From: Candidatus Cloacimonadota bacterium
GTDB taxonomy: Bacteria > Cloacimonadota > Cloacimonadia > JGIOTU-2
Assembly: GCA_016932035.1 (NCBI GenBank)
Contig: JAFGDR010000058.1
Location: 1-37,036, forward strand
Length of the DNA stretch: 37,036 bases
Direction: 5' to 3'
This document shows positions 19,861-29,278 of the stretch, piece by piece. The notes under the pieces are model-generated. The model saw nothing but the letters and a program-made list of their open reading frames with translations. It searched no databases and was not told the origin of the DNA. The translations under genes were made by a program, and so were the position numbers. Position 1 is the stretch's first letter. Each line of letters opens with the position of its first letter.

Positions 19861-21359
19861 ATGATTTAAACAGATATCCAGTCACTCTAGATAATGGAGA
19901 ATCAATAACTTTCGAGGTTTTATTTGAGCCGACTTCAACTGGTTCGAAGATAGCCACACTTTCCGTGTACTCTAATAGGGGTACTCATATTTCTGATCTT
20001 GAAGGTGAAGGAGTTCAAAATTACTTTGGGGGTGGAGGTGACGAAGAGGGAGGATATTATTTTGCCAATAGTCTTGCTACACTTGCCACATCACACCCAA
20101 CATATAGCTGGTATCCTAATCAGACAGGTGGTTCAAACGAAGGAACTTTGATTGCTGATACTGACTTTGTTAATGGAAATGAAGATAATGGTCACACCAA
20201 TCTAATAAATATATTCGATGATTCATCAAATTTTAATTTTTTTGGGATTAATTATACTCAGATGTATTTAAGTACAAATGGTACAATTGGTTTTGGAGAT
20301 GATCCAACACCTTGGCATGCATATACTTTTCAAAGAATTCCAAGCGCTTTGTTTGGTTATAATAATATGATTGCCTGGTGTTGGGATAACCTTGATTATG
20401 ATAGCGATTCATCAGCAGATGTAAATATCCGAATCTCGAGATTATCAGATAGGTCAATTATTACATTTTGGCATTATCCAAATTTGGAAGGAACACAGTA
20501 TATTACTGCTCAAGTTGTGATATTTAAAAATGGTAACATATTTATAATGTATAATGATGATGAAAGCACATATGATTCAACACAAAATGATTGTTCAATA
20601 GGGATTGAAAATGCGGATGGAAGTAAGGGAGTAAATTATAGATATGATGAAGAAGGGGGGCCAATATTTGGATCAAACCTTGCACTGGCTTTTGGACAGG
20701 ATGAATCAACACTTCCAGCAGAAATTTTATCAGGTTCCTTTACTGCATCATATACTTATAATGAATACGGATCTAATTATATCTCAATAGATTGGACTAC
20801 TCTTTCTGAAAATGATGTGCTGGGATGGTTTATATATCGTAATTCAATAAATGATCTCTTTACAGCAATTAGAATATCTTCTTTAATTGAGGGATATGGT
20901 TCAACTACACTTACTCATGTATATTCCTATAACGATTACACTGCAAAAATTCATCCTGGAAATGTTTATTACTATTGGCTTGAAATGATCGATTTCAGTG
21001 GAAACATAGATCAATACAATACAATTGCACAAGTGGTAATCCCTGATATACAAACACCAGGTCAAAATAACAATCCAATTATATATAATTTTTCTGCTTC
21101 ACCAAATCCATTTTCTGAAACTACTTCTATTTGCATAACTTTAGAGAAGACGGAACGAGTTGATATTTCCGTTTACGACATAACAGGGAGACTGATAAAG
21201 AAGTATAATCAATTATTAATTCCGTCAGATGAAGAATATTTTCTTGAATTTCAAGCTAAAGATAGAAAAGGAGATAGTATATCAAATGGTATATATCTGA
21301 TAAGTTTATCTATTGAAGGAAAACCATATAAAACTGAAAAGATAATCCTAGTTAAATAA
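19758..21359 (+). CDS. C-terminal part of the frameshifted surface protein, with type IX sorting domain
   Basis: Open frame downstream of the frameshift, readable from about 19758 although it has no own ribosome site; the first in-frame start-type codon considered is a GTG at 19965 inside the choice-of-anchor D repeat. It contains the rest of that repeat, a glycine/glutamate-rich linker (GGGGDEEGGYY), a nidogen-like domain (LINIFDDSSNFNFFGINYTQ, MYLSTNGTIGFG, IAWCWDNLDYDSDS, AQVVIFKNGNIFIMY), a fibronectin III-like segment and the C-terminal sorting domain ending KTEKIILVK. It would not be secreted without the upstream signal peptide. Confidence 0.7.
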   Translation, partial: ASSPQTFTVENIGSGELSISSVSISGTNSDQFSLDDLNRYPVTLDNGESITFEVLFEPTSTGSKIATLSVYSNRGTHISDLEGEGVQNYFGGGGDEEGGYYFANSLATLATSHPTYSWYPNQTGGSNEGTLIADTDFVNGNEDNGHTNLINIFDDSSNFNFFGINYTQMYLSTNGTIGFGDDPTPWHAYTFQRIPSALFGYNNMIAWCWDNLDYDSDSSADVNIRISRLSDRSIITFWHYPNLEGTQYITAQVVIFKNGNIFIMYNDDESTYDSTQNDCSIGIENADGSKGVNYRYDEEGGPIFGSNLALAFGQDESTLPAEILSGSFTASYTYNEYGSNYISIDWTTLSENDVLGWFIYRNSINDLFTAIRISSLIEGYGSTTLTHVYSYNDYTAKIHPGNVYYYWLEMIDFSGNIDQYNTIAQVVIPDIQTPGQNNNPIIYNFSASPNPFSETTSICITLEKTERVDISVYDITGRLIKKYNQLLIPSDEEYFLEFQAKDRKGDSISNGIYLISLSIEGKPYKTEKIILVK

Positions 21360-21584: not shown

Positions 21585-21609
21585 GGGAAGCATATGCTTC
21601 CCTTTTTTT
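21585..21609 (+). terminator. Intrinsic terminator upstream of nusB
   Basis: GGGAAGC/GCTTCCC with loop ATAT (an 18-base perfect palindrome) is followed by seven T. It isolates the surface-protein transcript from the nusB operon. Confidence 0.9.
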
Positions 21610-21662: not shown

Positions 21663-22103
21663 ATGAAACGACGAGAAGCCAGAGAAATTGCGGTGCAAAT
21701 GCTGTATGGACTTCACTTTGAAGAGATACCGCAAGACCACCTTTCTTTCGACGACTTATTAGACGAGAAATTCACCGAAGCAATATCAGTTAGCGACGTA
21801 ACTTTTACTCTTGAGGATAAGCAATTTTGCATAGATTTGGTTAAAGAAACATACCTTCATCTCAACGAAATTGATGAACTCATAAAGAAATTTTCAAAAA
21901 AGTGGTCGTTTGACAGGATCAATATCCTGGAGAAATGTGTTCTGCGTCTTGGCGTTATGGAGATCGAATATACTGATATCCCGGGAAAAGTAGCGATCAA
22001 TGAAGCTATCGAACTGGCTGAGGATTTCTCAGGGCAACGGTCAAAAAAATTTGTGAACGGCATCCTCGATGCTATCATGCATAGGGAAAAGAACAATGAT
22101 TAA
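21663..22103 (+). CDS. nusB: Transcription antitermination factor NusB
   Basis: A 146-residue all-helical RNA-binding protein that acts with NusE (S10) at boxA in rRNA antitermination. The N-terminal KRREAREIAVQMLYGLHF is the family arginine-rich RNA-contacting helix. The C-terminal half shows WSFDRINILEKCVLRLGVME, IPGKVAINEAIELAEDFSG and the terminal SKKFVNGILDAIM. Length is normal. AAGGTG precedes the ATG. It heads a plus-strand run whose next gene overlaps its stop by eight bases. Confidence 0.96.
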   Translation: MKRREAREIAVQMLYGLHFEEIPQDHLSFDDLLDEKFTEAISVSDVTFTLEDKQFCIDLVKETYLHLNEIDELIKKFSKKWSFDRINILEKCVLRLGVMEIEYTDIPGKVAINEAIELAEDFSGQRSKKFVNGILDAIMHREKNND

Positions 22104-22983
22104 TGTGAGTTTGGGCATTTTTGCCTATAATGAAGAAAAAAATATCAGGCAGCTTCTTGAAGCTGTGGAAGCACAGATTTTTAAAACAGTCAAACTCAAA
22201 GAGATCATCGTGGTATCCAGCGCTTCTACTGATCGGACCGATGAGATCGTGCGTGAATTTGAAAAAAAAGATCCTCGTATAAAACTTGTTGTTCAGAAAG
22301 AGCGAAAGGGTAAATCCTCGGCAATTAATCTCTTTCTGAAAGAAGCAACCGGTGATGTGCTCATCATAGAAAGTGCTGATACGATTCCCGCAAAAGATAC
22401 GATCGAGAAACTCGCTGCGCCCTATGTCGATGAAACAATCGGTATGACCGGCGGACGTCCGGAACCCATCAATAATCCAAAAAGTTTTATTGGATTTGCC
22501 GTATGCATGATGTGGCGTTTACATCATAAGATGGCTATGGTTTCTCCTAAATTGGGAGAAATGGCTTCTTTCAGAAATCTCGTGAAAGAAATACCAGAAC
22601 ACAGCCCGGTCGATGAAGCAAGTATCGAATCTATCATCACACATCATGGACTCAAACTCAAATATATTCCAGATGCAATCGTGCACAACAAGGGACCGGA
22701 AAATGCAGCAGATTTTATTAAACAACGCAGACGTATTTATACCGGGCATTTATGGTTGCAGGATAACCAGGACTATACAGTCATCTCTCAGAATTCCGGT
22801 TTGATTATCGGACTAACACTTAAAGAATTCTCCCTCAATCCAATCAAGGATCTGAAAATTATTTACACAATGCTTCTCGAAGTTTGGGGACGTTTCCTCG
22901 GCTGGTATGATTACAAAATATTGAAGAAGATCCCATACAAATGGGAAATCTCGGAATCAACAAAAGATTTAAGTAAGTCATAA
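22096..22983 (+). CDS. Family 2 glycosyltransferase
   Basis: A 295-residue GT-A glycosyltransferase. The N-terminus VSLGIFAYNEEKNIRQLLEA is the nucleotide-sugar-binding entry motif. IIVVSSASTDRTDEIVREF, KGKSSAINLFLKEATGDVLI and ESADTIPAKDTIEKL follow, the last occupying the place of the usual DxD. There is no strong membrane anchor, but the C-terminal part (from about 215) has hydrophobic helices and could associate with the membrane. The ATG at 22096 overlaps the nusB stop and is preferred because the domain starts there. It is followed immediately by the radical SAM gene. Sugar and acceptor are unknown. Confidence 0.87.
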   Translation: MINVSLGIFAYNEEKNIRQLLEAVEAQIFKTVKLKEIIVVSSASTDRTDEIVREFEKKDPRIKLVVQKERKGKSSAINLFLKEATGDVLIIESADTIPAKDTIEKLAAPYVDETIGMTGGRPEPINNPKSFIGFAVCMMWRLHHKMAMVSPKLGEMASFRNLVKEIPEHSPVDEASIESIITHHGLKLKYIPDAIVHNKGPENAADFIKQRRRIYTGHLWLQDNQDYTVISQNSGLIIGLTLKEFSLNPIKDLKIIYTMLLEVWGRFLGWYDYKILKKIPYKWEISESTKDLSKS

Positions 22984-24066
22984 ATGAAAAGCATAAAACT
23001 ACTCCTCAAACTTATTTTCCTCCGTCTTTCACGACATCTCTACCAAAAGATCCTGCTGCCGGTCAATTATACAGTTAGTGTGACATATCGCTGTAATTCC
23101 CGATGTAAAACCTGTAATATCTATAAGATCAAAAGCGATGAACTTTCTGTCGATGAGTATGATAAAATATTTCGATCTATAGGAAAAGCAGCATACTGGA
23201 TCACGATTAGCGGCGGTGAACCATTCCTGAGAAGAGATCTTGAAGAGATCATTAATGTGATGTACAAAAGATCCAGACCGAGTATCATCAACATTCCTAC
23301 AAACGGACTGCTGTGCAAAGAAATACCTCAACGCGTTCGCGCAATCGCAGAGAATTGCCCGAACAGTAATATCGTGATCAATGTTTCAATAGATGATATT
23401 GAAGAACGCGATTCCGAAATACGTGGTGTGCCCGATGCTTATAAAAAAGCATTACAGACCTTCGAGGGAATCACAAAGATCGATTTGTGCAATGTGAATG
23501 TGGGCATTCATACGGTTATATCAAAATTCAATGTCGGACGATTCAGAGAAATTTCAGGCAGTATAATGGACCTCCATCCAGACTCATATATTACGGAAAT
23601 AGCTGAGAATCGGGTCGAACTCGATACAATGAATGAGGATATTACTCCAAATGTCATGGATTACTCTCAAGCAATCGACTTTCTCCTTCATAAGATAAGA
23701 ACGACTCCTTTCAAGGGTTTCAATAAAATAACCCAAACCTTCCGTATCGAGTATTATAAGATGGTTAAAAAAATCCTGAAAGATAAGCATCGAATCCTTC
23801 CTTGTTATGCGGGAATTCTCTCTGCACAGATCGTACCGAATGGAGATGTATGGCCTTGCTGTATCAAAGCAGTCGTGATTGGAAATGTAAAAGAACACAA
23901 TTACAATTTTAAAAAACTCTGGAAAACTAGTAAGCTACTCAAAGATGAACGAAAGCTGATCCGCCAGGAAAAATGCTACTGTCCGATGGCAAATGCTTCA
24001 TATACGAACATGCTTATGAGCAATAAGATCCTATTCAAAGCTGTGTTGAGATTGCTGAAAAAATGA
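22984..24066 (+). CDS. Radical SAM protein with SPASM-like C-terminus
   Basis: A 360-residue protein with the radical SAM cluster motif CNSRCKTC (Cys37, Cys41, Cys44) after VTYR, the SAM-contact ISGGEPFLRRDLEE near 75-88 and INIPTNG. The C-terminal region has further cysteines in RILPCYAG, GDVWPCCIKAVVIGNV and EKCYCPMA, a pattern of an auxiliary 4Fe-4S cluster as in SPASM or twitch domains. The N-terminal 25 residues are basic and hydrophobic, so membrane association is likely. It starts directly after the glycosyltransferase stop and overlaps the next gene by four bases (ATGA). The family modifies peptides, lipids or sugars; the context (GT2, CDP-alcohol transferase) suggests a lipid or glycoconjugate substrate, but this is inference. 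Confidence 0.87.
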   Translation: MKSIKLLLKLIFLRLSRHLYQKILLPVNYTVSVTYRCNSRCKTCNIYKIKSDELSVDEYDKIFRSIGKAAYWITISGGEPFLRRDLEEIINVMYKRSRPSIINIPTNGLLCKEIPQRVRAIAENCPNSNIVINVSIDDIEERDSEIRGVPDAYKKALQTFEGITKIDLCNVNVGIHTVISKFNVGRFREISGSIMDLHPDSYITEIAENRVELDTMNEDITPNVMDYSQAIDFLLHKIRTTPFKGFNKITQTFRIEYYKMVKKILKDKHRILPCYAGILSAQIVPNGDVWPCCIKAVVIGNVKEHNYNFKKLWKTSKLLKDERKLIRQEKCYCPMANASYTNMLMSNKILFKAVLRLLKK

Positions 24067-25433
24067 GCGATAAATTCTTTACTATTCAAAAGCAGTACTC
24101 CATAAAAGACGGTAACTATATTTATTCTGACTTTTATGAGAAAACGCAGGAAAAAGTAGCGCTGATACTGAACTCCTATGAGCAAACCGAAAAATCAGAA
24201 CAGGCAATCGGCATCCTTCTCAATGTATTTAAAGAAAATTTTTTCGATACATCCTATGATATAAAATCCAGACTCCAGAATGCAATTCGGGAAATGAACT
24301 GGCATCTTACTGCTTTTTTCAATAGGGAAAAATGCAAATTCGAAATGTCTGCTGTTATCTGTGTTATCAAGAACAATAAAGTATATTTCGTGCAAACCGG
24401 CCGCTTGATAATCTACGCCTTCACCGATACATTACTCCCGGTAGGATTGGATATTCAGAAAAACTTCAAAGAATCATTTCATGTTCCCATGCTTGGCATC
24501 AAAGAAGGTGATCTGCAGATAAAAGTACTGACAATCGATCTCGAACAAGATACAGATATCTTCATCCTACCTTTCACAGCTGCAAAAAATATTGATGCTT
24601 CACGTTTTGATAAAGATAATTTCACTCAAGATATAAACACTCTTTTTGAGGAAAAATCAATACCACTTATTCGAATTACCGCTTCAGACATGCATTCTCA
24701 TTATAAACCCCGCAGAAAATTCAGGTTTAATTCCAGAATGACCGGACGGATCATGCTGATCGTCATCATTATCGCAACTGCCTACGTGCTTTTTGGACGC
24801 AAGTGGGGACAGGGACTTCTCAGTAGTGGAAAAGAAGTTATCAGTGAAAAAATGAGTCTGGTTGATTACAGATCACTCCTGCAAAATATGCCGTTCCCGG
24901 GCTTCGAAGTAAGAGACTGGCAGTGGTTAAGTCCGGCTGAGATAACAATGCCGCCAATTTTTGATGCGGAAAATATCTACATCATTACTGGAGATGAAAT
25001 AACCTGCGTGAAAAAGAACACCTTCCAACTTAGATGGAAAGAACAATTTGATGGAGATATTCAGGATGTTCAGTCGTTCCGTGACGAGAAACTTCTTGTC
25101 ATAGATTCAAAAGGAAACCATTCCTTGCTGGATAAAGCTAATGGGGAGATCGAGTGGCACAAAGTCAAGCCTGTAGTTCAGGAAAAGTATAGTAAACAAA
25201 CACCGCAGGTCATTCCTATTGATTACCTTCGTGATGGTCGACTTGAACAAAATTATTATCTTTTATCAAATAAAAATGCAGTGAGACTGATCCTTGCAGA
25301 CAAAGGGGATGTGATTGCTGAAGAAGTATTTGACGAGAAGATAGATTATATTTCAGATTACGATTATGTTGAAAAATGTTTTTATATCAGCATGGGCAGG
25401 AAGATCGTAAAAATCGATCTTGTTATTCTGTAG
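24063..25433 (+). CDS. Transmembrane protein with degenerate PP2C-like cytosolic domain and PQQ/beta-propeller-like outer domain
   Basis: A 456-residue protein with three parts. Residues 1-215 resemble the PP2C fold in pattern (KVALILNSYEQTEKSEQAIG, LQNAIREMNWHLTAFFN, MSAVICVIKNNKVYFVQTGR, IDLEQDTDIFILPFT), but the catalytic metal-binding aspartates (DG, GD.R, final GDN-type) are not recognisable, so it is probably a pseudophosphatase. A basic stretch (HYKPRRKFRFNSR) precedes one membrane segment, RIMLIVIIIATAYVLF (229-244). Residues 245-456 are outside and look like a partial propeller with PQQ-like repeats (IYIITGDEITCVKKNTFQLRWKE, LLVIDSKGNHSLLDKANGEIEW). It overlaps the radical SAM gene by four bases. 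It may sense an envelope state; no function is assigned. Confidence 0.75.
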   Translation: MSDKFFTIQKQYSIKDGNYIYSDFYEKTQEKVALILNSYEQTEKSEQAIGILLNVFKENFFDTSYDIKSRLQNAIREMNWHLTAFFNREKCKFEMSAVICVIKNNKVYFVQTGRLIIYAFTDTLLPVGLDIQKNFKESFHVPMLGIKEGDLQIKVLTIDLEQDTDIFILPFTAAKNIDASRFDKDNFTQDINTLFEEKSIPLIRITASDMHSHYKPRRKFRFNSRMTGRIMLIVIIIATAYVLFGRKWGQGLLSSGKEVISEKMSLVDYRSLLQNMPFPGFEVRDWQWLSPAEITMPPIFDAENIYIITGDEITCVKKNTFQLRWKEQFDGDIQDVQSFRDEKLLVIDSKGNHSLLDKANGEIEWHKVKPVVQEKYSKQTPQVIPIDYLRDGRLEQNYYLLSNKNAVRLILADKGDVIAEEVFDEKIDYISDYDYVEKCFYISMGRKIVKIDLVIL

Positions 25434-25498
25434 TTGATATGACGAATTCCGGATTCGTATTTTATATAAAAGGTTTTAAAAAGGAAAGATAGTTCGAA

Positions 25499-26419
25499 AT
25501 GGCAAAAAAAGTAAATGTCAACAACATCAAAGAATATAACCAGAAGGTTCTACGTGAGTTCAGAACATCTCTGAAGCACACCATTTTTGATGAAACATTG
25601 ACCCTCTATATTCTCCGTCCTATAGCTTTTATATTCGTCAAGATGATCTATCGTACGAATATAACACCAAACCAGGTCTCCCTGATGACAATCATTACAG
25701 GTCTTATCAGCGGATTTATTTATTCCTTTGGAAAACCGATATTTTTCATTATCGGCGGTGGATTGCACTTTTTCTGCCTTGTGCTGGATTGTGTTGACGG
25801 TATGATCGCTCGATTGAAGAAGAATGGTACTCCCGTTGGCAGGATCGTCGATGGTTTTGCAGATTACTCGGTCGGCGTGGCAGTTTTCATCGGTTATGGG
25901 ATTGGACTAGCGCATGCAGGATACCAGGTGCCTTTTTCTATTAATATCTCACACTGGACACTACTTGCCATTTCTGCTGTTAGCTGGATCTTCCATTCGA
26001 TAATTGTGGATTATTACCGTGTCGAGTTCATGGCTCATGGTCTTGGGATGATCAAATCTACTTGGGAAGAAAAGAGGCATTTCAAAGAAGAATTGAGAAA
26101 AATCAAGCATGAGAAGGGCAGGATCATGGATAAGATACTTATCGCATTGTATCTTGGCTATTCCCACCTTCAGCTCTTCAATCTGGAAAAAAGAGAAGTG
26201 TACGATCAAAAAACGTACTATAAAAAGAACAAAGTCATGGTCTTCCTTTGGTTCTGGATCGGTCCCACTGCTCAGGCATTTTTCATGATCATATCAGCAA
26301 TTTTATTCAGACCAATCATTTTCTTCGGGTATATTCTTATAATTGCGAATCTATGGATGATCGTACTCTGGATCATCCAAATACATATAAATAAAAAAAT
26401 CCTCATCAAGGAAACATAA
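25499..26419 (+). CDS. CDP-alcohol phosphatidyltransferase family protein
   Basis: A 306-residue integral membrane enzyme. The complete CDP-alcohol signature, D-x2-DG-x2-AR-x8-G-x3-D-x3-D, occurs at residues 97-122 (LDCVDGMIARLKKNG then GRIVDGFAD). The membrane segments are around 62-96, 123-135, 150-170 and two near the C-terminus. A soluble, highly charged insert (about 180-245) separates the halves and is longer than in phosphatidylglycerophosphate or phosphatidylserine synthases. The enzyme exchanges CMP of a CDP-linked lipid or alcohol for another alcohol. It is last in the nusB run, about 65 bases after the PP2C-like gene, with AAGGAAAG upstream. The exact lipid product is not deducible. 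Confidence 0.87.
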   Translation: MAKKVNVNNIKEYNQKVLREFRTSLKHTIFDETLTLYILRPIAFIFVKMIYRTNITPNQVSLMTIITGLISGFIYSFGKPIFFIIGGGLHFFCLVLDCVDGMIARLKKNGTPVGRIVDGFADYSVGVAVFIGYGIGLAHAGYQVPFSINISHWTLLAISAVSWIFHSIIVDYYRVEFMAHGLGMIKSTWEEKRHFKEELRKIKHEKGRIMDKILIALYLGYSHLQLFNLEKREVYDQKTYYKKNKVMVFLWFWIGPTAQAFFMIISAILFRPIIFFGYILIIANLWMIVLWIIQIHINKKILIKET

Positions 26420-26537: not shown

Positions 26538-27719
26538 ATGGCAAAGATAGCATCTGCCGGAAATTATGGTCCGAAGATCCGCTCTGACTGCTTGGTAACA
26601 ATCGAGCTTACAGATAGCGGGTTGGATATAGAGCTCATCAGCAAGATTAAAGATTTTTTTGGAGATCATATCATAGCGCTTGCGCAGGATGTTTTGAATT
26701 TCTTTGGCATTAAAAATGCAAAAATTAAAATCGAAGATCAGGGAGCGCTGGACTTTGTTATCGCTGCTCGTATTGAAGGTGCACTCAAGAAAGCTGATCC
26801 ATCCATATCTAAATCCTACCTTCCCGAGATGAAGGCTCATTGCGAATATAAATCTTCGAAGGATGCACTTCGAAGATCTCGACTATACCTTCCGGGCAAT
26901 TCCCCAAAACTGATGCTAAATGCCGGCTTACATGACGCAGATGCCCTTATTCTTGATCTCGAGGATTCGGTTCATCCCGATGAAAAAGATGCAGCGAGAA
27001 TACTCGTTCGAAATGCTCTTCGAACAGTTGATTTCAAAGGTGCGGAACGAATGGTGCGCATCAATCAGCTTCCGCTTGGATTTGAAGATATAAAAGAGAT
27101 CATTAATGAAAATGTTCACGTCATACTGATCCCGAAATGTGAATTAGCCCAGCAGGTTATCGATGTTGATGCAAAAATTGCCGAATGTAAGAAATCCAAA
27201 AAGCCGGTCTTTCTTATGCCGATCATCGAATCTGCAAAAGGAGTTATGCATGCATATGAGATCGCAGGTGCATCAGAGAATGTTGTTGCACTTGCACTTG
27301 GACTTGAGGATTATACAGCAGACATCGGAGTGACTCGATCAAAAAGTGAAGATGAATGTTTCTTTGCAAAAAGTATGGTTGTCAACGCTGCAAAAGCTGC
27401 TGGTAAACAGGCAATTGATACAGTATTCTCAGATGTGAATGACATGGAAGGTTTGTACGAGAATGTCAAACAGGCAAAAGCCCTTGGTTTTGATGGTAAA
27501 GGTTGTATCCATCCTCGCCAGATCAGGGTAATCCATAAAGCATTCCTTCCTACTGTAGAAGAACTGGTAAAAGCAGAGAGTATTATCGATGCATTCAATG
27601 CTGCCAAAAAGGAAGGTAAAGGAGTTGTTTCTCTGGGAAGTAAGATGATCGATGCGCCGGTTGTAAAGCAAGCTCAAAAAGTTTTGAAAATGGCAAAGAT
27701 CGGAGGTATGATCAAATGA
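26538..27719 (+). CDS. citE: Citrate lyase acyl-carrier and beta subunit fusion (CitD-CitE)
   Basis: Residues 1-88 form the gamma/acyl-carrier domain (SAGNYGPKIRSDCLVTIEL, ISKIKDFFGDHI, IKIEDQGALDFVIAARIEGAL). Residues 111-393 are the citryl-lyase beta subunit (RRSRLYLPGNSPKLMLNAG, DALILDLEDSVHPDEKDAAR, VRINQLPLGFEDI, IIESAKGVMHAYEIAGAS, LALGLEDYTADIG, GFDGKGCIHPRQI, GVVSLGSKMIDAPV). CitD and CitE are usually separate genes. In CitD the prosthetic phosphoribosyl-dephospho-CoA sits on the first Ser of AGTLESSD; here a three-residue insertion puts Arg15 at that place and Ser16 next. AAGGAG precedes the ATG. The stop overlaps citF by four bases. The enzyme splits citrate to acetate and oxaloacetate; a citramalate substrate is possible. 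Confidence 0.92.
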   Translation: MAKIASAGNYGPKIRSDCLVTIELTDSGLDIELISKIKDFFGDHIIALAQDVLNFFGIKNAKIKIEDQGALDFVIAARIEGALKKADPSISKSYLPEMKAHCEYKSSKDALRRSRLYLPGNSPKLMLNAGLHDADALILDLEDSVHPDEKDAARILVRNALRTVDFKGAERMVRINQLPLGFEDIKEIINENVHVILIPKCELAQQVIDVDAKIAECKKSKKPVFLMPIIESAKGVMHAYEIAGASENVVALALGLEDYTADIGVTRSKSEDECFFAKSMVVNAAKAAGKQAIDTVFSDVNDMEGLYENVKQAKALGFDGKGCIHPRQIRVIHKAFLPTVEELVKAESIIDAFNAAKKEGKGVVSLGSKMIDAPVVKQAQKVLKMAKIGGMIK

Positions 27720-29278
27720 AAAAAGCAGATAAATTTGTAAAAAATGCAGCCGGACGTCTCGTACCCACGATCGTAAACGGCAAAAAAGTTATGCCTTTTA
27801 TGGGAGTTGGAAAATACAGACCTAACCACAAAGGTGCTTCACCCCGAGTACCAACTATCATAGATTATCCGATGGATTGCAATAAGGTCGTAGGTTCTCT
27901 TAAAGATTCACTCATACAATCAGGTTTGAAAGACGGCATGACCATTTCGACACATCACCATTTCAGAAATGGAGATTATGTTGCGAATTGGATCTTCGAA
28001 ATTGCAGCAGAACTTGGCATAAAAGATCTTGTTTGGCTACCAAGCGCTGCTTTTCCCTGCCATGCGCCGATCATAAAACATCTTGAATCCGGTGTTGTTC
28101 ATCATATTGAAGGCAGCTTGAACGGACCTCTTGGAGATTTTTGCAGCCGTGGCAAGATGAAAGGACTTGGATACTTACGAAGTCATGGCGGCAGATATCG
28201 TGCTATTGCCGATGGTGAAATCCATGTTGATATTGCAGTACTTGCTGCTTCAGCTTCAGACATGACGGGTAATGCAAACGGTGTTCTTGGAAAACATCCT
28301 TTTGGTCCAATGTCGTTTTCTAAAGTTGATTCCATGATTGCAGACCGGACGATTATTGTCACAGATACGTTGCTTGATTTCCCCTGTTACCCATGGGAAA
28401 TAATGGGCAACGAGGTGGATTTCGTTGTTGTTGTTGATGAGATTGGCGATCCTTCAAAAATAGTATCCGGCACGACAAAAATTACAAAAAGCCCTGACCG
28501 TTTGCTCATTGCCGAATATGCTGCAAAATTTGTTGAAGCAGCTGGTATTCTCAGAGACGGAATGAGCTTTCAGGCAGGAGCCGGTGGAGTATCATTAGCA
28601 TTTACCGATTTTGTAAATAATATGATGATTGAAAAAGACATCAAGGCAAGAAGTATGATCGGGGGAAGTACAAAATATCTTGTAGATATGATGAATAACG
28701 GTCGTACCGATTATATCTTTGACGGACAAAATTTTGGCTTAGAAGCGATCGTTTCTCTGAGAGATAATCCCAGACACATACCAATTGATGTTCGTGAAAG
28801 TTACGATTATCATGCAAAAAGTAACCTCGTTCAAATGATGGATGTGATTGTACTCGGTAGTACAGAAGTTGATGTTAACTTCAATGCGAATTGCGTGACT
28901 CACAGTGATGGACGAATGCTACACGGTATTGGTGGATTCCAGAACTGTATGATGGCAAAATGCACCATGATCGCTGCGCCGTCATTTAGAGATAGAATTC
29001 CGGTGATCAAGGATGAAGTAACTACACTTGTGGCACCTGGTGACTTGGTCGATGTTATCGTAACAGAACGAGGTATAGCCATTAATCCGTTGAGAGCTGA
29101 TCTGATTGAAGCAACAAGGAATTCAAGACTTCCGATAAGAGATATTCGTGACATTAAAGATGAGGTCGATGATATGTGCGGTATTCCGGTAAAACCAAAA
29201 CTTTCTGATGAAGCAGTCGCAGTTGTTGAATGGGTTGATGGCACGATCCTCGATACGATTTACAAGATCGAAGAATAA
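27716..29278 (+). CDS. citF: Citrate lyase alpha subunit (citrate:acetyl-ACP transferase)
   Basis: A 520-residue CoA-transferase-type subunit that exchanges acetyl for citryl on the acyl carrier. Family blocks include NAAGRLVPTIVNGKKVMPFMG near the N-terminus, GMTISTHHHFRNGDYVAN, EGSLNGPLGDFCSRGKMKGL, RSHGGRYRAIADGEIHVDIA, FQAGAGGVSLAF, GGSTKYLVDMMNNG, VTHSDGRMLHGIGGFQN and VVEWVDGTILDTIYKIEE. The length is typical of CitF. It overlaps the CitD-CitE fusion by ATGA. The ligase (citC), holo-enzyme transferase (citX) and prosthetic-group synthase (citG) genes usually found beside it are not in this window. Confidence 0.95.
   Translation: MKKADKFVKNAAGRLVPTIVNGKKVMPFMGVGKYRPNHKGASPRVPTIIDYPMDCNKVVGSLKDSLIQSGLKDGMTISTHHHFRNGDYVANWIFEIAAELGIKDLVWLPSAAFPCHAPIIKHLESGVVHHIEGSLNGPLGDFCSRGKMKGLGYLRSHGGRYRAIADGEIHVDIAVLAASASDMTGNANGVLGKHPFGPMSFSKVDSMIADRTIIVTDTLLDFPCYPWEIMGNEVDFVVVVDEIGDPSKIVSGTTKITKSPDRLLIAEYAAKFVEAAGILRDGMSFQAGAGGVSLAFTDFVNNMMIEKDIKARSMIGGSTKYLVDMMNNGRTDYIFDGQNFGLEAIVSLRDNPRHIPIDVRESYDYHAKSNLVQMMDVIVLGSTEVDVNFNANCVTHSDGRMLHGIGGFQNCMMAKCTMIAAPSFRDRIPVIKDEVTTLVAPGDLVDVIVTERGIAINPLRADLIEATRNSRLPIRDIRDIKDEVDDMCGIPVKPKLSDEAVAVVEWVDGTILDTIYKIEE

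Follow-up and report, generated by a model that had tools for sequence, protein, structure and literature searches.

A 37,036 nt stretch of DNA from a Candidatus Cloacimonadota metagenome-assembled genome (MAG), here called the window, carries four genes downstream of nusB whose predicted products are a family 2 glycosyltransferase (GT2), a radical S-adenosylmethionine (SAM) enzyme, a membrane protein with a PP2C-like head and a propeller-like tail (the third gene or protein below), and a CDP-alcohol phosphotransferase. The genome (G000) comprises 2.44 Mb in 66 contigs and is 95% complete. A previous sequence-only reading had proposed that these genes form an uncharacterized four-gene module for an unusual membrane lipid or lipid-linked glycan with a dedicated sensor. 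An open reading frame (ORF) check and Pfam scores place all four ORFs, with the families assigned to them, at the coordinates which that reading gave. The dense packing that it described was also found: nusB and the GT2 gene overlap by 8 bp, the GT2 and radical SAM genes abut with a 0 bp gap, and the radical SAM and third genes overlap by 4 bp, followed by 65 bp containing a small stem-loop before the CDP-alcohol gene. The features of the locus are as follows.

21585..21602, + strand: terminator-like hairpin just 5′ of nusB, from a pattern scan (7 pairs, 5 of them G-C, then TTTTTTT)
21663..22103, + strand: nusB (PF01029, 116 bits), the conserved upstream neighbour
22096..22983, + strand: GT2 glycosyltransferase, 295 aa, core gene 1 (PF00535)
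22984..24066, + strand: radical SAM enzyme, 360 aa, core gene 2 (PF04055; SPASM, PF13186)
24063..25433, + strand: PP2C-like/propeller membrane protein (third gene), 456 aa (structure model, Foldseek, hydropathy)
24063..24692, + strand: predicted PP2C-fold head of the third protein, residues 1-210 (Foldseek to tPphA and others)
24735..24806, + strand: predicted single membrane helix of the third protein, residues 225-248 (hydropathy; helix 224-245 in the model)
24894..25430, + strand: predicted partial beta-propeller tail of BamB/PQQ type in the third protein, residues 278-456 (model, Foldseek)
25442..25458, + strand: small stem-loop, then ATTTTATAT, weakly terminator-like (sequence and fold, -5.2 kcal/mol over a 70-base stretch)
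25499..26419, + strand: CDP-alcohol phosphotransferase, 306 aa (CDP-OH_P_transf), a local neighbour outside the conserved unit

The hairpin upstream of nusB is likely the 5′ boundary of the transcription unit, a hairpin alone being no proof of function. An in-frame ATG for the GT2 gene is also present at 22069, but aligned homologues begin at 22096.

We surveyed 125 Cloacimonadota genomes, 71 of them of good quality (≥90% complete, ≤5% contaminated), scoring presence at E ≤ 0.001 with paralogues included. Matches to the GT2 are found in 125/125 genomes (71/71 of good quality), some of them paralogues, and about 115 genomes hold a true orthologue (E below 1e-50). The radical SAM gene is matched in 121/125 genomes (70/71 of good quality) and the third gene in 108/125 (65/71). 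One 96% complete genome (G070) lacks both the radical SAM and third genes and matches the GT2 only weakly, the joint loss expected of a unit.

Gene order was compared in 60 regions around the module and in another 20, most of which surround the CDP-alcohol gene. The recurring order in the phylum is (ribH)-nusB-GT2-radical SAM-third gene. Of 56 testable loci, 50 have the GT2 gene ≤300 bp upstream of the radical SAM gene and 51 have the third gene, or the PP2C-like half of it, ≤350 bp downstream; nusB lies ≤1.7 kb upstream in 50 of 53 testable loci. Three of the six exceptions to GT2 adjacency belong to close relatives of the window, in which small ORFs of nucleotidyltransferase (MNT-like) and/or HepT type separate the two genes, and in G121 and G122 the radical SAM and third genes stand together while the GT2 gene is with nusB on another contig. 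The order of the three genes is therefore kept across the phylum more often than chance would give. The conserved unit is a GT2-radical SAM core with nusB upstream and the PP2C-like/propeller gene, without the CDP-alcohol gene. Such ORFs, possibly a toxin-antitoxin pair, stand between the GT2 and radical SAM genes in the closest relatives of the window (L068, L069, L070 and L143); the window has no such insert.

The CDP-alcohol protein scores 34.9 bits against CDP-OH_P_transf (PF01066), and its catalytic motif is intact (D97xxD100G101xxA104R105x8G114x3D118x3D122). The same DxxDGxxARx8GxxxDxxxD motif is present in AF2299 and the PIP synthases. Unlike these enzymes, the window protein has 306 aa with additional C-terminal membrane segments, and it falls far under every curated equivalog cut-off. 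The gene is matched in 37/125 genomes of the phylum, bona fide in 33/125 (more than about 130 bits), and is confined to families f1 and f12. It adjoins the module in genus g1 only, and two g1 genomes (G109 and G114) lack it at that site. In family f12 it often occurs with LicD, CDP-glycerol-transferase-like (TagF-like), NTP-transferase and Maf genes. From this distribution and these neighbours, the enzyme appears to serve a phospho-alcohol decoration or head-group function of its own and to be a neighbour at the genus level only.

These data bear directly on the idea that all four gene products make one unusual membrane lipid. The four window genes are co-directional, the CDP-alcohol gene stands at the module in several g1 species (L069, L071 and L143), and its carriers almost all hold a GGGP synthase gene (32/33 by hand count). 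However, this co-occurrence is confounded by ancestry because the CDP-alcohol gene is confined to f1 and f12. Moreover, most genomes with the other three genes lack the fourth, in f12 it stands with the LicD and CDP-glycerol-transferase-like genes named above, and in the window it is set apart from the third gene by the 65-bp gap with its stem-loop. Distribution and synteny thus rule out a four-gene module, and a single lipid pathway shared by all four proteins is highly unlikely. What stands from the sequence-only reading is a conserved uncharacterized cluster, reduced to three genes around a GT2-radical SAM core. That reading had also warned that the genes might be neighbours only in close relatives, which is true of the CDP-alcohol gene but not of the GT2-radical SAM pair.

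The pair extends beyond Cloacimonadota. Among 387 genomes sampled around the window, close radical SAM orthologues appeared in several other lineages, and the GT2 gene adjoins the radical SAM gene in G350, G210, G334, G193 and G254. Within the phylum of G334, the radical SAM gene is present in 17/20 genomes (13/13 of good quality), with the GT2 gene directly upstream in 17/17 loci. In all 16 loci that are long enough, the radical SAM gene is immediately followed by DUF362 and methyltransferase genes. The two genes are adjacent in 3/3 loci from the phylum of G350, and B12-binding radical SAM genes also lie within the cluster in G350, G210 and G254. In G334 and G193 the order is ribH-nusB-phosphoesterase-GT2-radical SAM, so the link to nusB and ribH is older than the phylum or has moved as a block. 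The recurrence of nusB-GT2-radical SAM throughout Cloacimonadota, together with this arrangement in another phylum, contradicts the earlier suggestion that the nusB linkage may be just positional. The GT2 and radical SAM genes are an ancient pair, kept on the same strand and in the same order in distant lineages, at least three of them outside Cloacimonadota.

Loci L209-L224, from the phylum of G334, share the constant order GT2-radical SAM-DUF362-methyltransferase. As a candidate for a missing phylum-wide partner in Cloacimonadota, DUF362 was rejected: matches there are nearly all to a more distant DUF362 member, with partial alignment to the profile. The sole strong full-length match to the cluster-type DUF362 (303 bits) is at G121:C64:1677-2771, a gene possibly acquired from another lineage. 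A literature search for DUF362 with a radical SAM enzyme and a glycosyltransferase returned no match.

Other genomic settings outside the phylum give clues to the chemistry. In G339 and G198 (L194 and L195) a single ORF joins a DPM1-like glycosyltransferase domain to the GT2 orthologue behind it; this ORF adjoins PMT_2, polyprenyl synthetase and UbiA genes; in G339 the radical SAM gene is elsewhere, beside a geranylgeranyl-reductase-type (GGR-type) flavoprotein gene. G334 carries an LPG_synthase_TM gene and further glycosyltransferase genes downstream of the pair. The GT2 orthologue of G360 lies in a polysaccharide-like cluster, with a DPM1-like and an epimerase-like gene nearby, as well as a member of the methyltransferase family of G334-type clusters. 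The DPM1 fusion and the PMT_2, polyprenyl synthetase, UbiA and LPG_synthase_TM contexts point to membrane-linked glycan chemistry.

The GT2 protein matches PF00535 with 98.7 bits (cut-off 23.3), and its mean pairwise identity within the phylum is 58%. GT-A motifs are invariant in the alignment (N12/E13, S93xD95, D173E174 and Q210R211xR213), and the nearest solved structure is 6yv7, a family 2 glycosyltransferase (E 6e-15). It shares the GT2 catalytic core with DPM1/PcManGT-type and other polyprenyl-phosphate or membrane glycosyltransferases of this family. In contrast to the DPM1/PcManGT-type enzymes, it has no membrane helices and carries a variant S-x-D in place of DxD. No NCBIfam equivalog model scores above its own cut-off for this protein.

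The radical SAM enzyme matches PF04055 with 45.8 bits (cut-off 29.5) and SPASM PF13186 with 27.4 bits, which passes its own cut-off. It is conserved at a mean pairwise identity of 62% within the phylum. Invariant residues include C37x3C41x2C44 and G77 G78 E79 (the CX3CX2C and GGE motifs), and only five C-terminal cysteines are invariant (C274, C292, C293, C331 and C333). The complete SPASM motif of seven cysteines with two auxiliary clusters was not found, and by its sequence the region would be classed as a reduced, twitch-like SPASM. An N-terminal helix is hydrophobic and basic. All NCBIfam scores for the pair lie far under their cut-offs, and no curated family names either the GT2 or the radical SAM protein. 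Scans with curated models likewise revealed no established substrate for the radical SAM family, and hence not the established unrelated substrate whose discovery, according to the sequence-only reading, would argue against its hypothesis. Viperin models match the radical SAM domain only weakly and the other proteins not at all, and a defence system was rejected.

The best curated match of the radical SAM enzyme is NirJ2, and AhbD also matches. In addition, riboflavin genes adjoin the pair in both Cloacimonadota and the phylum of G334. These observations might indicate that the radical SAM enzyme serves tetrapyrrole or cofactor metabolism in the cytosol, and that nusB and ribH mark a housekeeping operon and not envelope work. 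However, the NirJ2 and AhbD scores are 81.9 and 65.5 bits against a cut-off of 500 in each case, so the enzyme does not belong to these heme-enzyme families by curated models, and no other tetrapyrrole gene was recognized near the module. To our knowledge, the known heme pathways have no role for a glycosyltransferase partner. We regard this explanation as quite unlikely.

Maturation of a peptide or cofactor offers a closer parallel. Mycofactocin biosynthesis pairs a SPASM radical SAM enzyme (MftC) with a GT2 glycosyltransferase (MftF) acting on a ribosomal peptide (PMC3023750), as the two families are paired genetically in the window. Both mycofactocin models match weakly, and the best fold matches of the radical SAM enzyme include SkfB and SuiB. 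Yet the scores are far under the curated cut-offs (58.1 versus 265 bits for MftC, 38.7 versus 280 bits for MftF), and the genomic partners differ. No small precursor peptide gene is present within the cluster junctions from nusB to the third gene, where there is no room for one (small ORFs elsewhere in the genome were not searched), and no precursor-binding gene was seen. On the low scores and the lack of intergenic space, a mycofactocin system or another system for ribosomally synthesized and post-translationally modified peptides was rejected, and a mycofactocin-like maturation role for the pair is unlikely.

The architecture anticipated for the third protein, a transmembrane protein with a PP2C-like head and a propeller-like tail, is supported by an alignment-based AlphaFold2 model and by Foldseek. 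The model has a mean pLDDT of 81.7 and a pTM of 0.47, a value that leaves the position of the domains relative to each other uncertain. The predicted head matches PP2C phosphatases (tPphA: E 3.8e-9, TMt 0.64, probability 1.00), with TMt values to these enzymes of at most about 0.65, and the tail matches BamB, for which the PQQ_2/BamB sequence match of 22.7 bits is below the cut-off of 27.6. One hydrophobic segment, residues 225-248, lies between head and tail and is preceded by a basic stretch. The N-terminal side is probably cytosolic, as judged from these sequence features, and the propeller probably lies outside the cytoplasm.

The predicted fold of the N-terminal 210 residues resembles the PP2C Ser/Thr phosphatases tPphA, PppA, PstP and SaSTP. 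Unlike these enzymes, the third protein has R114 at the position of the GDSR aspartate, by a profile alignment to the S. aureus phosphatase SaSTP in which the sequence match is weak (E about 0.01), and it bears an attached helix and propeller. The metal-binding aspartates of active PP2C enzymes (DG.GG, GDSR and SDG) were not found in the head; no DG.GG or SDG motif was seen by eye in a 34-sequence alignment of the protein, and none of the 33 members of the head alignment matches a Pfam phosphatase family. The head thus appears to be a dead-looking PP2C fold, or pseudophosphatase. The tail shares its repeat type with BamB and with membrane kinases carrying a PQQ beta-propeller (7eq5 and 7dxn), in which a propeller is likewise attached to a signalling enzyme domain. 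In contrast to these proteins, the window protein has only part of a propeller, some 180 residues long, and a pseudophosphatase head in place of a kinase. A literature search for PP2C combined with BamB or a propeller gave no match.

The third protein evolves fast, with a mean pairwise identity of 26% compared with 58% for the GT2, 62% for the radical SAM enzyme and 66% for ribH. The state of the gene also varies: it may be a whole ORF, two separate ORFs (head and tail), head only, tail only or absent. All of these states occur within a few related genera (L104-L121 and L093, families f12 and f5). The fast evolution and occasional splitting or loss indicate that the protein is accessory to the GT2 and radical SAM enzymes. 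Its nearest named relatives are from Candidatus Cloacimonadota MAGs, including NIOZ-UU3; a contig search with it returned matches from the genus of the window only, and 20 genomes tested outside the phylum gave only generic PQQ-repeat matches.

Taken together, the best explanation, to which we give about an even chance, is that the GT2-radical SAM pair makes or modifies a membrane-associated envelope glycan, with the third protein as a sensor or scaffold. In Cloacimonadota the pair would be inherited vertically with nusB and often ribH. The GT2 would add a sugar to a membrane-associated acceptor, or at a site within it; examples of such acceptors are glycolipids and glycans carried on polyprenyl phosphate, and a polyprenyl linkage is probable. 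With its hydrophobic, basic N-terminal helix anchoring it to the inner membrane face, the radical SAM enzyme would carry out a radical modification of the transferred sugar or of the acceptor. The usual partner in Cloacimonadota, in which one helix would join a cytosolic dead PP2C domain to an external BamB-like propeller, may couple the state of the envelope to both enzymes. The link to a lipid-linked glycan with a sensor that was drawn from the sequence thus remains plausible, without the CDP-alcohol enzyme, which is not in the conserved unit. A bolder form of the proposal, in which the product is a phylum-defining envelope glycan or glycolipid not seen before, made by radical chemistry on a lipid-linked sugar and watched in Cloacimonadota by a novel type of transmembrane sensor with a dead PP2C domain and a partial propeller, is tentative and somewhat doubtful.

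Several observations weigh against an envelope role. The GT2 has no membrane helix by hydropathy, and the radical SAM model (pLDDT 85.3) gives generic SPASM/twitch fold matches (SkfB, MoaA, SuiB, viperin, BlsE and DesII) to enzymes that act on peptides, nucleotides and sugars. The orthologues of the pair are not adjacent in G339/G198 or in G360, and the glycan and lipid clues come from other phyla, which by analogy point to such chemistry but are no proof for Cloacimonadota. There, most neighbours have housekeeping roles (nusB, ribH, valS and PhoH-like), and in a mirror-tree comparison the nusB distances track the radical SAM distances better than the GT2 distances do; vertical inheritance therefore explains part of the linkage. 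Finally, several genomes keep the pair while the third protein is wholly or partly lost, and this protein is therefore not essential to the chemistry.

An association with archaeal-type ether lipids was also considered. GGGP and DGGGP synthases of a set of Black Sea Cloacimonetes MAGs that includes NIOZ-UU3 have been shown to be active (PMC7852524), and NIOZ-UU3, a close relative, carries the module locus on a contig (L002). The settings of the orthologues in G339, beside a GGR-type gene for the radical SAM enzyme and beside polyprenyl synthetase and UbiA genes for the GT2, would also fit membership of the pair in this pathway. However, GGGP synthase (PF01884) is present in 67/125 genomes of the phylum, in most families and including G000 (C40:7995-8672), but a search for it drew a blank in family f3, which has an intact GT2-radical SAM-third gene module. 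An archaeal-lipid module, or an obligate link to that pathway, is therefore contradicted, and we consider it extremely improbable that the pair belongs to the pathway.

The conservation of the pair at about 60% identity across a largely uncultured phylum, with its order kept in other phyla, suggests that it probably has a basic role. Its product is named by no curated family and is not described in the literature searched. Should the radical chemistry of the pair prove to yield a lipid-linked glycan, envelope biosynthesis would gain a new step. It would also offer a chemical handle on Cloacimonadota, which already draw interest because their membranes may be of mixed bacterial/archaeal type. 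The pseudo-PP2C/propeller protein would, in turn, represent a new layout for a transmembrane sensor.

Elsewhere in the window, the ORF upstream of nusB (19965-21359) encodes a protein that carries the C-terminal sorting domain of type IX secretion (PF18962). Downstream of the CDP-alcohol gene, a citrate-lyase ORF (26538-27719) fuses an acyl-carrier CitD-type domain (PF06857) to a CitE-type lyase domain, a fusion that looks unusual, and is directly followed by CitF (27716-29278).

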